64,000 nucleotides of DNA from Gammaproteobacteria bacterium (GTDB lineage: Bacteria > Pseudomonadota > Gammaproteobacteria > Arenicellales > Arenicellaceae): positions 1 to 64,000 of the forward strand of contig JAKVBA010000029.1 of the NCBI GenBank assembly GCA_022447525.1. The letters run 5' to 3'. Each line of letters begins with the position of its first letter. The stretch's first letter is position 1. The position numbers and the translations under genes are program-made. Shown here piece after piece: positions 29,135 through 34,211 of the stretch. The notes beneath the pieces were generated by a model. It was not told where the DNA came from, searched no databases, and worked only from the letters and a program-made list of their open reading frames with translations.

Positions 29135-30214
29135 ATGTCAGATTTATTCGAAAACCCAATGGGTCTATGCGGATTTGAGTTTATTGAGTTCGCTGCAACT
29201 GAAGAAGGTACGCTTGAGCCAATTTTAGAAATGGCTGGCTTCAGCAAAGTAGCCGTGCATCGATCCAAAAATGTGCACCTATATCGCCAAGGAGGTATTA
29301 ACTTATTGCTCAATTATGAGCCGAACAGTAACGCCTATTACTTTGCACAAGAACACGGGCCATCAGCGTGTGGCATGGCATTTCGAGTAAAAGACGCACA
29401 ATTCGCATATGAGCGTGCTCTTGAGTTAGGCGCTCAGCCAGTTGAAATACCGACGGGACCAATGGAACTTAGATTGCCAGCCATCAAAGGCATTGGTGGC
29501 GCACCACTGTATTTAATTGACCGGTTTGAAGAAGGCTCGTCTATTTATGATATTGATTTCGTATTTCTAGAAGGTGTTGATCGCAATCCAGTTGGATGCG
29601 GCTTTAACGTTATCGATCATTTAACCCACAATGTGTATCGTGGTCGAATGAAGTACTGGGCCGATTTCTATGAGCGATTGTTTAACTTCAGAGAAATTCG
29701 CTATTTCGATATCAAGGGTGAATATACTGGCCTGTTGTCAAAAGCGTTGACTGCGCCAGATGGAATGATTCGCATTCCATTAAACGAGGAAGCTTCTAAA
29801 GAAACAGGACAGATTGAGGAGTTCCTGATGGCCTACAATGGCGAGGGGATTCAACACATCGCTTTCTCTTGCGACAATCTGTTGGAGTGCTGGGATAAGT
29901 TAAAAGCGCGCGGCATGCCCTTTATGAGCGCACCACCCGACACTTACTATGCCATGCTAAATGAACGTTTGCCCAATCATGGTGAGCCAGTGGAAGAACT
30001 TCAAACTCGTGGTATTCTGTTAGATGGCTCAACTGAGAATGACGATCCTCGTCTATTGTTACAAATTTTTTCAGACACATTAATAGGCCCAGTATTCTTT
30101 GAATTTATCCAAAGAAAGAAGGATGATGGTTTTGGTGAAGGTAATTTCAAAGCTTTGTTTGAATCAATTGAAAGGGACCAAATCGAAAGAGGCATCATTG
30201 CCACCGACGTATAA
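29135..30214 (+). CDS. hppD: 4-hydroxyphenylpyruvate dioxygenase
   Basis: 359 aa. Turns 4-hydroxyphenylpyruvate into homogentisate, using Fe(II) and the substrate's own keto acid. Two VOC-type halves are seen; the iron ligands are H162 (VIDHLTHNV), H241 (GIQHIAF) and E323 (FFEFIQRK), exactly one residue off the Pseudomonas enzyme numbering. The C-terminal helix [17 protein letters not shown] is intact. It begins a seven-gene operon for Phe/Tyr breakdown and follows a two-operator promoter. All catalytic residues are present. Confidence 0.97.
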
Positions 30215-30260: not shown

Positions 30261-31577
30261 ATGTTAGTACTCAATGAAACCCACAACCCTGAATTGAAAA
30301 GCTGGGTAGCGTCTGCCAATGGCACCAGCACTGAGTTTCCGATTCAAAATTTACCTTTTGCAATTTTTCGTCGCAAGGGGCATGACGAAGCATTTAGAGC
30401 TGGGGTTGCTATCGGAGAGCACATTGTAGACCTACGTGCGGCACACAAAGCAGGGGTTTTCCCAATGGAACTCACCCCTATTTTAAAAACGCTCTATAAA
30501 CCGCGCTTAAACAAGTTTATGGCACTCGGAAAAGAATCATGGTCGGCACTGCGTCTCGCTTTATCAAGGGTGTTGCGTGAGGACTCTGATAAAATAGTGC
30601 AATTGGAAACATGTTTAATTCCGCAAGCTCAAGCCGAGTACAAGTTACCAGCACGGATAGGTGACTATACTGACTTTTATACCTCAATTCATCACGCCAC
30701 CAATGTAGGTAAGTTGTTTAGACCTGACAATCCACTTTTACCAAACTATCAATGGGTACCAATCGGCTATCATGGCCGCAGTTCGTCAATCAAAGTGTCA
30801 GGCCATGAGTTTCATCGCCCCGTCGGACAGCTGAAAGCGCCAGACGCCGATCACCCAACACTTGCTCCTTGTAAACGTTTAGACTACGAACTCGAAGTAG
30901 GTATTTACATCGGCACAGAAAACGATCTTGGTGAATCAATCTCGATTGAAAAAGCCGAAGATCATGTGTTTGGCCTATGTCTATTTAATGATTGGTCGGC
31001 GCGCGATATCCAAGCTTGGGAGTACCAGCCTTTGGGGCCATTTTTGTCCAAAAGCTTTGCGTCAACTGTATCTCCTTGGATCGTTACTATGGAGGCACTT
31101 GCGCCTTACAGACAACAATGGAGTCGACCAGCTGATCACCCACAGCCGCTGGACTATTTAGACTCACAAGAACTAAGAGATCGTGGCGCCGTGAATATGC
31201 ACCTCGAAATCTATATTCAAACTAAAAAAATGCGTAAAGACGGAGACGCAGCAGAGCGCATTGCCATAAGTAACTTTAATCAATCTTACTGGTCAATCTC
31301 ACAAATGGTAACGCATCATAGCGTGAATGGATGCAATCTTAAGGCCGGCGACTTGTTCGGTAGCGGCACTATGTCGGGCCCAAGTGAGGACAGCGTTGGA
31401 GCGCTCTTAGAGGCTACAGAGGGCGGTAAAAAACCAATCACTCTAAAAAATGGAGAAACCCGAACTTTTCTAGAAGACGGTGATACAGTGATTTTGAAAG
31501 GACATTGCCAAAGCGATAGCGCCCCCAAAATCGGCTTTGGTGAAGCTTCGGCGACTGTATTAGCAAGTAAGTACTAG
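30261..31577 (+). CDS. fahA: fumarylacetoacetase
   Basis: 438 aa, cleaves fumarylacetoacetate to fumarate and acetoacetate, the last ring-derived step of Tyr breakdown. N-terminal SH3-like domain (FAIFRRKGHDEAFRAGVAIGEHIVDLRA) then the catalytic FAH domain: DYTDFYTSIHHATNVGKLFRPDNPLL, YHGRSSSIKVSG, DYELEVGIYIG, LFNDWSARDIQAWEYQPLGPFLSKSF and GSGTMSGPS. The catalytic His and the metal-binding Asp/Glu residues are all visible. Long, eukaryote-like form, as usual for this pathway. Confidence 0.97.
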   Translation: MLVLNETHNPELKSWVASANGTSTEFPIQNLPFAIFRRKGHDEAFRAGVAIGEHIVDLRAAHKAGVFPMELTPILKTLYKPRLNKFMALGKESWSALRLALSRVLREDSDKIVQLETCLIPQAQAEYKLPARIGDYTDFYTSIHHATNVGKLFRPDNPLLPNYQWVPIGYHGRSSSIKVSGHEFHRPVGQLKAPDADHPTLAPCKRLDYELEVGIYIGTENDLGESISIEKAEDHVFGLCLFNDWSARDIQAWEYQPLGPFLSKSFASTVSPWIVTMEALAPYRQQWSRPADHPQPLDYLDSQELRDRGAVNMHLEIYIQTKKMRKDGDAAERIAISNFNQSYWSISQMVTHHSVNGCNLKAGDLFGSGTMSGPSEDSVGALLEATEGGKKPITLKNGETRTFLEDGDTVILKGHCQSDSAPKIGFGEASATVLASKY

Positions 31578-31591
31578 GAGGGAAATAGAAA

Positions 31592-32131
31592 GTGAAAATT
31601 GATCGAATTCATCATGTCGCTTATCGGTGTCATGATGCCAAAGAAACGGTTGAATGGTATGTTAAAAATTTAAAGATGGATTTTCAGCTCGCTATTGCTG
31701 AAGACCAAGTTCCTTCTACCAAAGAGCCCGATCCGTACATGCATGTTTTCCTGGACGCTGGTCACGGCAACGTTTTAGCTTTTTTCGAACTACCGACTAA
31801 ACCAAAAATGGGAAGAGATGAGAATACGCCAGAATGGGTACAACATATTGCTTTCAAAGTCCAAGACATGGAGACCCTCAAGGCTTATAAAGAGCATCTC
31901 GAAGCAAATGGTATTGAAGTTCTTGGTGTAACCGATCATTCGGTATTTCACTCGATTTATTTTTTTGATCCCAATGGACATCGCTTAGAACTAGCCGCAC
32001 CTGACTCAGCCGAAAAAGAAAAACTTGAGCGACTAAGCGAGGTAAAGTGGGATATGCTCAATGAGTGGGCTGAAACTAAAAAGGCACCCCGTCACGCTGA
32101 CTGGATGCATAATAAAGAGTTTGACTCATGA
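31592..32131 (+). CDS. VOC-superfamily protein in Tyr-catabolic operon, function unknown
   Basis: 179 aa, GTG start, AGGAGGG upstream. Two beta-alpha-beta-beta-beta modules: RIHHVAYRCHDAKETVEWYVKNLKMDFQL and WVQHIAFKVQDMETLKAYKEHLEANGIEV. Candidate metal ligands in glyoxalase-like order are H8, E66 (FFELP), H85 (QHIAF) and E133 (LELAAP); H85 and E133 with H8 would suit a type I extradiol dioxygenase. A charged tail of about 40 residues follows. The gene lies between fahA and maiA (overlapping maiA by 4 bp), and no hmgA of the usual family is in the operon, so homogentisate cleavage is one possible role. A lactoylglutathione-lyase-like or isomerase role is equally open. Confidence 0.88.
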   Translation: MKIDRIHHVAYRCHDAKETVEWYVKNLKMDFQLAIAEDQVPSTKEPDPYMHVFLDAGHGNVLAFFELPTKPKMGRDENTPEWVQHIAFKVQDMETLKAYKEHLEANGIEVLGVTDHSVFHSIYFFDPNGHRLELAAPDSAEKEKLERLSEVKWDMLNEWAETKKAPRHADWMHNKEFDS

Positions 32132-32781
32132 GTGAACAAATCACGCTCACCACCTATTTTCGTAGTACCGCTGCTTATCGTGTTCGAATTGCTCTCAACC
32201 ACAAAGGAATTGATCACACTTTGTTGCCTGTTAATTTATTGACAGGAGAACACAAGGAGGATTCATTTTTAGCTCACAATCCTCAAGGTTTATTACCAAC
32301 ATTGAAGATAGATGACGCCGTAGTGACTCAATCTATGGCTATTTTAGAGTACATAGAGGAAACCTATCCGCAGTCAGCTCTCTTACCTGATGATGGTTTA
32401 CAACGTGCTGCAGTACGATCGTTGGCACACAGTATCGCATGCGATATTCACCCGCTAAACAATCTTAGAGTTTTGAAGTATCTAGTCAACGAAGTGAATG
32501 TGGACGAAAGCGGCAAGCTAAAATGGTATCACCATTGGCTTGAACAGGGTTTCTCAGCCATTGAGAAACAATTAGCGCATAATGCTGATAGAGAAAATTT
32601 TTGTTTTGGAAGTTCAGTAACTATGGCGGATGTTTGTCTGATCCCTCAGGTCTACAACGCCAATCGTTTTAATTTCGATTTAAGTAATTATCCGTTGATT
32701 AGTGAAGTTAATGAGCATTGCCTGCAGTTACCCGCATTCGCTAAATCAGCTCCAGAACATCAACCAGATTTTAAATCTTAA
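32128..32781 (+). CDS. maiA: maleylacetoacetate isomerase (zeta-class GST)
   Basis: 217 aa, isomerises maleylacetoacetate to fumarylacetoacetate with glutathione. The N-terminal thioredoxin-fold start [20 protein letters not shown] is the zeta-class signature (the usual Cys of SSCxxRVRIAL is Ala here, common in bacteria), then [13 protein letters not shown] and [15 protein letters not shown], and a helical C-terminal domain with the [18 protein letters not shown] motif. Start overlaps the VOC stop (ATGA), so translation is coupled. Confidence 0.95.
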
Positions 32782-32837: not shown

Positions 32838-33539
32838 ATGGCTGGGTTCGATAAAGTAGTAACAAGTTACACTGAGGCTATGGCTGGCCTTGAAGATAAT
32901 ATGACTATCGTCGCTGGCGGCTTTGGCCTGTGTGGTATTCCTGAAAATTTAATCAAGGAAATAAAACGCAAAGGCACAAGGGGTTTAACCATCGCTTCCA
33001 ATAACGCAGGTGTTGATGGTAAAGGCCTTGGTCTTCTTCTTGAAGACAAACAAATTAGAAAAATGATCGCATCTTACGTTGGTGAAAATGCGCTCTTCGA
33101 GGCGCAAATGATGAGCGGTGAATTGGAAGTTGAGCTTACACCACAAGGCACTTTAGCCGAAAAAATGCGGGCTGGCGGAGCCGGCATACCCGCTTTCTAT
33201 ACTGCAACTGGCTACGGAACACCGGTGGGAGAGGGCAAAGAGGTACGTGAATTCAACGGTCGACATTACATTCTCGAAGAAGCAATTCAGGGCGATTTCT
33301 CGATCGGTAAAGCATGGAAAGCCGATCGACATGGCAATTTAATGTTTCGAAAAACGGCAAGAAACTTTAACCCGATGGCGATCACAGCAGGAAAAATTTC
33401 AGTAGTTGAGGTCGAGGAAATTGTTGAGGTAGGTGAATTAGATCCGGATGAAATTCACCTACCAGGCATCTATGTCAATCGATTAATCAAAGGCACTTTC
33501 GAGAAGGCCATTGAACAACGCACCGTAAGAAACGCATAA
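32838..33539 (+). CDS. scoA: 3-oxoacid CoA-transferase subunit A
   Basis: 233 aa. [58 protein letters not shown] and [19 protein letters not shown] are the CoA-transferase family I alpha motifs. With ScoB it moves CoA from succinyl-CoA to acetoacetate, so the product of FahA enters central metabolism. The GTGxxxG-like glycine loop and length match SCOT-type enzymes. Good ribosome site before ATG (AGGAGC). Confidence 0.94.
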
Positions 33540-33554: not shown

Positions 33555-34211
33555 ATGGCACTTACAAGAGAACAGCTTGCACAACGCGTTTCACAAGAGT
33601 TTAAAGATGGTTACTATGTAAATCTTGGTATCGGCATACCAACGCTAGCGGCAAACTACATACCTGACGATATGGAAGTATTACTGCAATCGGAAAACGG
33701 TTTGTTAGGGATGGGCCCGTTTCCGTTGGAGGAAGAAGTCGATGCCGATTTAATCAACGCTGGCAAACAGACAGTGACAATGAAGACAGGCGCTTCAATT
33801 TTTTCGTCTGCTGAGTCATTTGCGATGATAAGAGGTGGTCACGTAGATTTAACTGTACTCGGGGCCTTTGAGGTTGACTGCCAGGGCAACATCGCGTCCT
33901 ATATGATCCCCGGCAAACTCATCAAAGGAATGGGCGGAGCGATGGATTTGGTTGCCGGGGCGGACAACATCATCGTAACCATGACACACGCTTCTAAATC
34001 TGGACAGTCTAAGCTGCTTAAGGAATGCACATTGCCACTAACCGGCAAAGGCTGCATTAAAAGGGTTCTAACAGACCTTGCTCTAATGGACATAGAAGAT
34101 GGAAAATTTATACTGCGCGAGCGCGCACCAGGCGTTAGCGTAGAAGAAATCCTTTCACTGACTGAGGGCGAGCTAGTAGTGCCTGATCATGTTCCAGAAA
34201 TGCAGGTTTAA
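33555..34211 (+). CDS. scoB: 3-oxoacid CoA-transferase subunit B
   Basis: 218 aa. YYVNLGIGIPTLAANYIP, the catalytic Glu in LLQSENGLLGMGP, INAGKQTVT and GGHVDLTVLGAFEVDCQGNIASYMIPGKLIKGMGGAMDLVAG are the beta subunit motifs. Starts 15 bp after scoA with GGAGGAG. The pair is intact, so acetoacetate from Tyr can be activated. Confidence 0.95.
   Translation: MALTREQLAQRVSQEFKDGYYVNLGIGIPTLAANYIPDDMEVLLQSENGLLGMGPFPLEEEVDADLINAGKQTVTMKTGASIFSSAESFAMIRGGHVDLTVLGAFEVDCQGNIASYMIPGKLIKGMGGAMDLVAGADNIIVTMTHASKSGQSKLLKECTLPLTGKGCIKRVLTDLALMDIEDGKFILRERAPGVSVEEILSLTEGELVVPDHVPEMQV

Follow-up and report, generated by a model that had tools for sequence, protein, structure and literature searches.

The cleavage of homogentisate is usually scored by the presence of the cupin enzyme HmgA. 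The closest described systems to the locus reported here come from Acinetobacter, where the corresponding gene of A. baumannii, A1S_3416, is annotated in transcriptome tables as glyoxalase/bleomycin resistance protein/dioxygenase (PMC3758355), and the same gene bears the name hmgA in one review (PMC7273844). Fonseca et al reported a pigmented A. baumannii strain without an hmgA homologue, and the ring-cleaving-dioxygenase-like protein beside hmgC was judged inactive because the pigmented strain carries it (PMC7646211). Zhao et al mapped Tn2006 in the "hmgA" of the pigmented (pyomelanin) strain DETAB-R21, in which a plasmid copy of "hmgA" abolished the pigment, and gave the target-site duplication as CATTTTTTT (PMC9431530). 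A PDB entry released on 2025-07-23 (9u42) is titled "Crystal Structure of Homogentisate 1,2-Dioxygenase from Acinetobacter in Complex with Zn ion" and its molecule name is "Glyoxalase". Our literature search found no paper on 9u42, and the enzyme name is taken as the depositors' claim; it likewise found no paper or enzyme assay on a VOC homogentisate dioxygenase. Upstream of ring cleavage, MhaA of Pseudomonas putida U together with the small coupling protein MhaB (60 aa) converts 3-hydroxyphenylacetate to homogentisate (PMC3053370). Here, a VOC-fold protein (the window protein) was analysed in a 64,000-nucleotide stretch of an Arenicellaceae genome (the window).

The VOC gene and its operon

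The genes hppD-fahA-VOC-maiA-scoA-scoB-phhA form a same-strand run in the window (Table 1). The names proposed in the first-pass annotation for hppD, fahA, maiA and phhA were borne out by curated models over their cut-offs, and those of scoA and scoB were assigned solely from the ORFs and their order. The VOC-fold ORF called in that annotation is real: it starts with GTG 14 bp downstream of fahA, an AGGAGG ribosome site lies 10 nt before this codon, and the product of the ORF matches the Pfam Glyoxalase/VOC family (E = 1e-15). Its reported position between fahA and maiA and its coupling to maiA were also seen, the VOC stop codon and the maiA ATG at 32128 sharing a 4-bp ATGA overlap.

Table 1. 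Features of the tyrosine-catabolic operon, with positions in the window.
Feature	Position	Strand	Basis
hppD, 4-hydroxyphenylpyruvate dioxygenase (makes homogentisate)	29135..30214	+	TIGR01263, 390.8 bits vs cut-off 277
fahA, fumarylacetoacetase	30261..31577	+	TIGR01266, 543 bits vs cut-off 375
Ribosome-binding site region (AGGAGG) of VOC gene	31572..31591	+	
VOC-fold homogentisate 1,2-dioxygenase (predicted), 179 aa	31592..32131	+	Pfam, residue conservation, catechol 2,3-dioxygenase alignment, 9u42 match
maiA, maleylacetoacetate isomerase	32128..32781	+	TIGR01262, 280 bits vs cut-off 171
scoA, acetoacetate:succinyl-CoA transferase subunit A	32838..33539	+	ORF, translation; identity from first-pass annotation, order, spacing
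scoB, acetoacetate:succinyl-CoA transferase subunit B	33555..34211	+	ORF, translation; identity from first-pass annotation, order, spacing
phhA-like aromatic amino acid hydroxylase, 576 aa	34242..35972	+	NF010657 PRK14056, 658 bits vs cut-off 346

The Pfam scan of the window protein returned VOC-type families and one sub-threshold chance match, and since HgmA_N and HgmA_C were not among its matches, the protein was discarded as a cupin HmgA. No specific curated NCBIfam model was matched over its cut-off. The NCBIfam glyoxalase-like and Fos models were far from being reached (for example, 35.5 vs 171 bits for FosB), and an identity as glyoxalase I or FosA/FosB was therefore rejected.

The source genome assembly has 222 contigs and is 96.5% complete. 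Genome-wide domain searches with HgmA_C (PF04209) and HgmA_N (PF20510) gave no match in it, and both domains were detected in the positive control Caulobacter vibrioides, in agreement with the earlier observation that the usual cupin-type HmgA is missing. The gentisate dioxygenase model TIGR02272 also had no match in the source genome, and of 17 further genomes of the genus, seven of them at least 98% complete, none had HgmA_C. All other steps of the pathway are encoded in this one operon, and together with the absence of HmgA from the genome this supports reading the window protein as a homogentisate dioxygenase.

Predicted fold and active site

The AlphaFold model of the window protein (48 sequences) has a mean pLDDT of 93.5, and its best PDB match in Foldseek is 9u42 (69% identity, TM 0.87/0.92), the sequences matching over residues 3-177 with E = 8e-81. 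The crystallised protein is about 95% identical, over 176 residues compared, to the A. baumannii protein encoded at a fahA-maiA-VOC locus. The single-domain L-DOPA dioxygenase is one of the more distant structural matches, and FosB and glyoxalase I folds are among the closest solved structures beyond the family itself.

Residues H8, E66, H85, E133, H116 and Y123 are each invariant in 43 orthologues, and these include all four ligand candidates (H8, E66, H85 and E133) proposed from the sequence in the first-pass annotation. In a profile match, H85, H116, Y123 and E133 correspond to H214, H246, Y255 and E265 of catechol 2,3-dioxygenase, in which we take H214 and E265 to be metal ligands and H199, H246 and Y255 to be catalytic residues. 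H8, H85 and E133 are predicted to be the metal ligands of the window protein, with H8 assigned as the first His of a 2-His-1-Glu site by its place in the fold and not by alignment, and H116 and Y123 are predicted to be catalytic. E66 lies where glyoxalase I presumably has an extra Glu ligand, and it is possibly a fourth ligand or a second-sphere residue. The 2-His-1-Glu set and the catalytic His/Tyr pair of type I extradiol enzymes have counterparts here, and the acid-base residue His199 lacks a conserved one, as the aligned column 72 varies.

Distribution of the VOC gene and hmgA

The source genome and 60 relatives were searched, and HppD was over the cut-off in 20 of them. The close VOC gene, which is what was counted as VOC in this sample, was present alone in 14 of the 20 and hmgA alone in five; none had both, and one (G010) had neither, its fahA hitting a contig end with the next gene outside the assembly. 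A class-wide sample of 232 genomes contained 37 with HppD, among which hmgA was found in 19, VOC in six, neither in 12 and both in none (p = 0.008 for zero overlap; 0.035 with the source genus counted once). Mutual exclusion of VOC and hmgA holds in the genus and the order. The order hppD-VOC-fahA, or a VOC gene that follows hppD by 34-36 bp, is seen again in other families, as in G258 and G125, where the VOC start is 34-36 bp from the HppD match.

VOC paralogues of about 35% identity (L018-L030) were excluded as a separate family. This second family is present in the order, is about 30-36% identical to the window protein, has H7, H8, H51, H85, H116, Y123 and E133 in common with it, and occurs together with hmgA in G031, G036 and G057. 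At three loci of another family of the order, f3 (L157, L158 and L016), VOC is found near a PF18288-type FAH protein, and two of these loci also have a MetE-like (PF01717) protein nearby; neither hppD nor hmgA was over the cut-off in these genomes, and the VOC gene of these loci likely belongs to a different pathway.

The best 80 named relatives of the window protein (71-83% identity) come from Alphaproteobacteria, Burkholderiales, Arenicella, Colwellia and some Acidobacteriota. Two contexts dominate in the family: VOC with hppD and fahA, with or without maiA, and VOC with fahA or maiA beside an MBL-fold protein and an FAD monooxygenase of the PRK08132 group, sometimes also with a DUF2783 protein and an IclR regulator. 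We infer that the FAD monooxygenase and the small protein of these modules are MhaAB-like. In some Burkholderiales (L159-L162), hmgA-fahA comes after the FAD monooxygenase, in most cases accompanied by IclR and MBL; in Burkholderiales without hmgA (L112, L122 and L143), VOC and fahA lie inside the IclR-MBL-FAD monooxygenase module, and in a Sphaerotilus plasmid (L164; plasmid sequence alone) VOC-fahA is in an FAD monooxygenase module. These arrangements support the view that, in hmgA-less operons with an MhaA-like hydroxylase, the VOC gene occupies the ring-cleavage position. An Acinetobacter plasmid carries the FAD monooxygenase with a 61-aa protein, an IclR regulator and fahA-maiA-VOC-CoA transferase A and B-thiolase, a gene set that implies acetoacetate release and therefore fits homogentisate and not gentisate. 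Between transposase genes of the Enterobacter plasmid pJBIWA005_2 (L165:7992-11799) are found VOC, an MFS transporter, a short FAH-family hydrolase and maiA; this locus is a mobile island of catabolic genes, whose substrate may be another hydroquinone.

The first-pass annotation held that a VOC gene next to hmgA in many relatives would speak against replacement. This was seen mostly in Alphaproteobacteria and not in the genus and order, where there was no overlap. Of 50 genomes of the named collection that carry VOC and were tested, 29, mostly Alphaproteobacteria, also have hmgA; the VOC enzyme would thus replace HmgA in some lineages and accompany it in others. In many Alphaproteobacteria hmgA, fahA, the FAD monooxygenase, VOC and maiA form one cluster, and at many of the loci L074-L126 (for example, L105:1188-8292) the MBL-fold protein is clustered with them. 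These alphaproteobacterial clusters hold two unrelated candidate homogentisate dioxygenases near each other.

In the family tree, the window protein falls inside a 67-row family separated with 100/100 support from four paralogues of about 35% identity. The hmgA-present and hmgA-absent states are mixed on the VOC tree, with 10 changes and no two-clade split, and the tree thus does not point to a separate VOC paralogue in hmgA-bearing genomes; one alphaproteobacterial VOC clade is hmgA-positive in 19 of 19 cases. It is conceivable, though we consider it unlikely, that Alphaproteobacteria retain VOC beside hmgA for a second, distinct job, such as cleaving the product of the adjoining FAD monooxygenase or another hydroquinone, and that the substrate of the family is broader or different in that lineage.

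In A. baumannii, fahA-maiA-VOC was found together with an IclR regulator gene and hpd in three chromosomes, none of which matched HgmA_C; the VOC orthologue is 66% identical to the window protein. Three A. baumannii entries of 3.7-4.1 Mb (NZ_CP064203.1, NZ_CP077849.1 and NZ_CP104448.1) are filed as plasmids and have chromosome-like content. Within the fahA-maiA-VOC-IclR-hpd block, the duplication reported for DETAB-R21 occurs in the VOC gene only, at the same place in the three chromosomes. As a 9-mer of this kind is expected by chance 1.3 times per 12.5 kb, the match alone is moderate evidence, suggesting that the "hmgA" of DETAB-R21 is the VOC gene; unless the strains differ here, the position of the duplication argues against Tn2006 having hit maiA, fahA or hpd. 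The "hmgA" of another study (PMC11945678) was not used as evidence because its reference measures 633 bp, exactly as long as the maiA of A. baumannii; that reference is probably maiA, and the hmgA-mutation statements made there need care.

Proposed function and comparison with known enzymes

The window protein is, with high confidence, a VOC-superfamily, non-cupin homogentisate 1,2-dioxygenase standing in for HmgA. This reading draws on the gene order, the hmgA absence, the conservation, the predicted fold and the co-occurrence observed here, together with the pyomelanin genetics and the depositors' name for the Acinetobacter orthologue from the literature and the PDB. Among the options raised in the first-pass annotation, replacement of HmgA fits best with the exclusion of hmgA, the operon slot, the Acinetobacter genetics and the name of 9u42. 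In the proposed mechanism, homogentisate made by HppD would bind at a mononuclear site whose metal, probably Fe(II), would be coordinated by His8, His85 and Glu133; O2 would be activated at the metal and the ring cleaved to give maleylacetoacetate, with His116 and Tyr123 probably handling protons like their type I extradiol counterparts. MaiA and FahA would then convert maleylacetoacetate to fumarate and acetoacetate, and the CoA transferase would activate the latter. We infer the activity of the window protein itself, its exact chemistry, the ligand set and Fe(II) from these relationships.

That many Alphaproteobacteria and some Burkholderiales have both VOC and hmgA, and that FosB and glyoxalase I folds are among the nearest solved structures outside the family, could be explained if the protein were an accessory or detoxification enzyme of the homogentisate pathway, acting for example on maleylacetoacetate, quinone products of homogentisate or a glutathione adduct, while an unrecognised enzyme elsewhere cleaved the ring. 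This is very improbable, given that hmgA is absent where VOC is the only spare operon gene, in several lineages and plasmid islands, that disruption gives pyomelanin in A. baumannii (the "hmgA" matched to VOC by the duplication), and that 9u42 is named a homogentisate dioxygenase. The Enterobacter plasmid layout, with VOC, MFS transporter, short FAH hydrolase and maiA, presumably resembles gentisate clusters, and the f3 VOC gene adjoins a PF18288-type hydrolase with no hppD over the cut-off; both would be expected if some members cleaved another hydroquinone, such as gentisate, with homogentisate as a secondary substrate. The window partners hppD, a true fumarylacetoacetase and the acetoacetate CoA transferase fit homogentisate instead, and we regard this alternative, too, as very improbable. 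The function as a homogentisate dioxygenase is thus preferred, and the VOC family very probably does homogentisate cleavage in Arenicella-like bacteria, Acinetobacter and some Burkholderiales.

The VOC homogentisate dioxygenases are a known but poorly annotated type. As 9u42 already contains the idea, and the work on pyomelanin in A. baumannii does so less clearly, the window protein adds to an enzyme type already known and its novelty is modest. Family members are mostly annotated as "VOC family protein" or glyoxalase, and the family has no curated NCBIfam model of its own over the cut-off; the GapMind papers returned by our literature search make no mention of homogentisate. Where scoring depends on HmgA and a VOC enzyme has taken its place, the catabolism of tyrosine, phenylalanine and 3-hydroxyphenylacetate would be called broken although it is complete. 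A VOC dioxygenase also explains the pyomelanin mutants of Acinetobacter in a simple way, if it acts as proposed, and why many Alphaproteobacteria keep both enzymes becomes a testable question.

Compared with known systems, 9u42 is of the same family as the window protein at near full length; the organism differs and the crystal metal is Zn. A. baumannii A1S_3416/"hmgA" has the same pathway neighbours, and the three chromosomes searched also lack a cupin hmgA; the genes are arranged differently, as fahA-maiA-VOC with hpd encoded on the opposite strand, compared with hppD-fahA-VOC-maiA in the window. The VOC fold is common to the window protein and the type I extradiol dioxygenases such as catechol 2,3-dioxygenase and L-DOPA dioxygenase. 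Two ligand positions and the catalytic His and Tyr of catechol 2,3-dioxygenase are kept, although that enzyme has about 300 aa and the window protein is a single short domain, and although type I extradiols cleave catechols whereas the proposed substrate here is a para-diol. The cupin-type HmgA (PF04209/PF20510; about 440 aa) shares the proposed reaction and the place in the pathway but has an unrelated fold, which makes this a clear case of two unrelated folds for one pathway slot.
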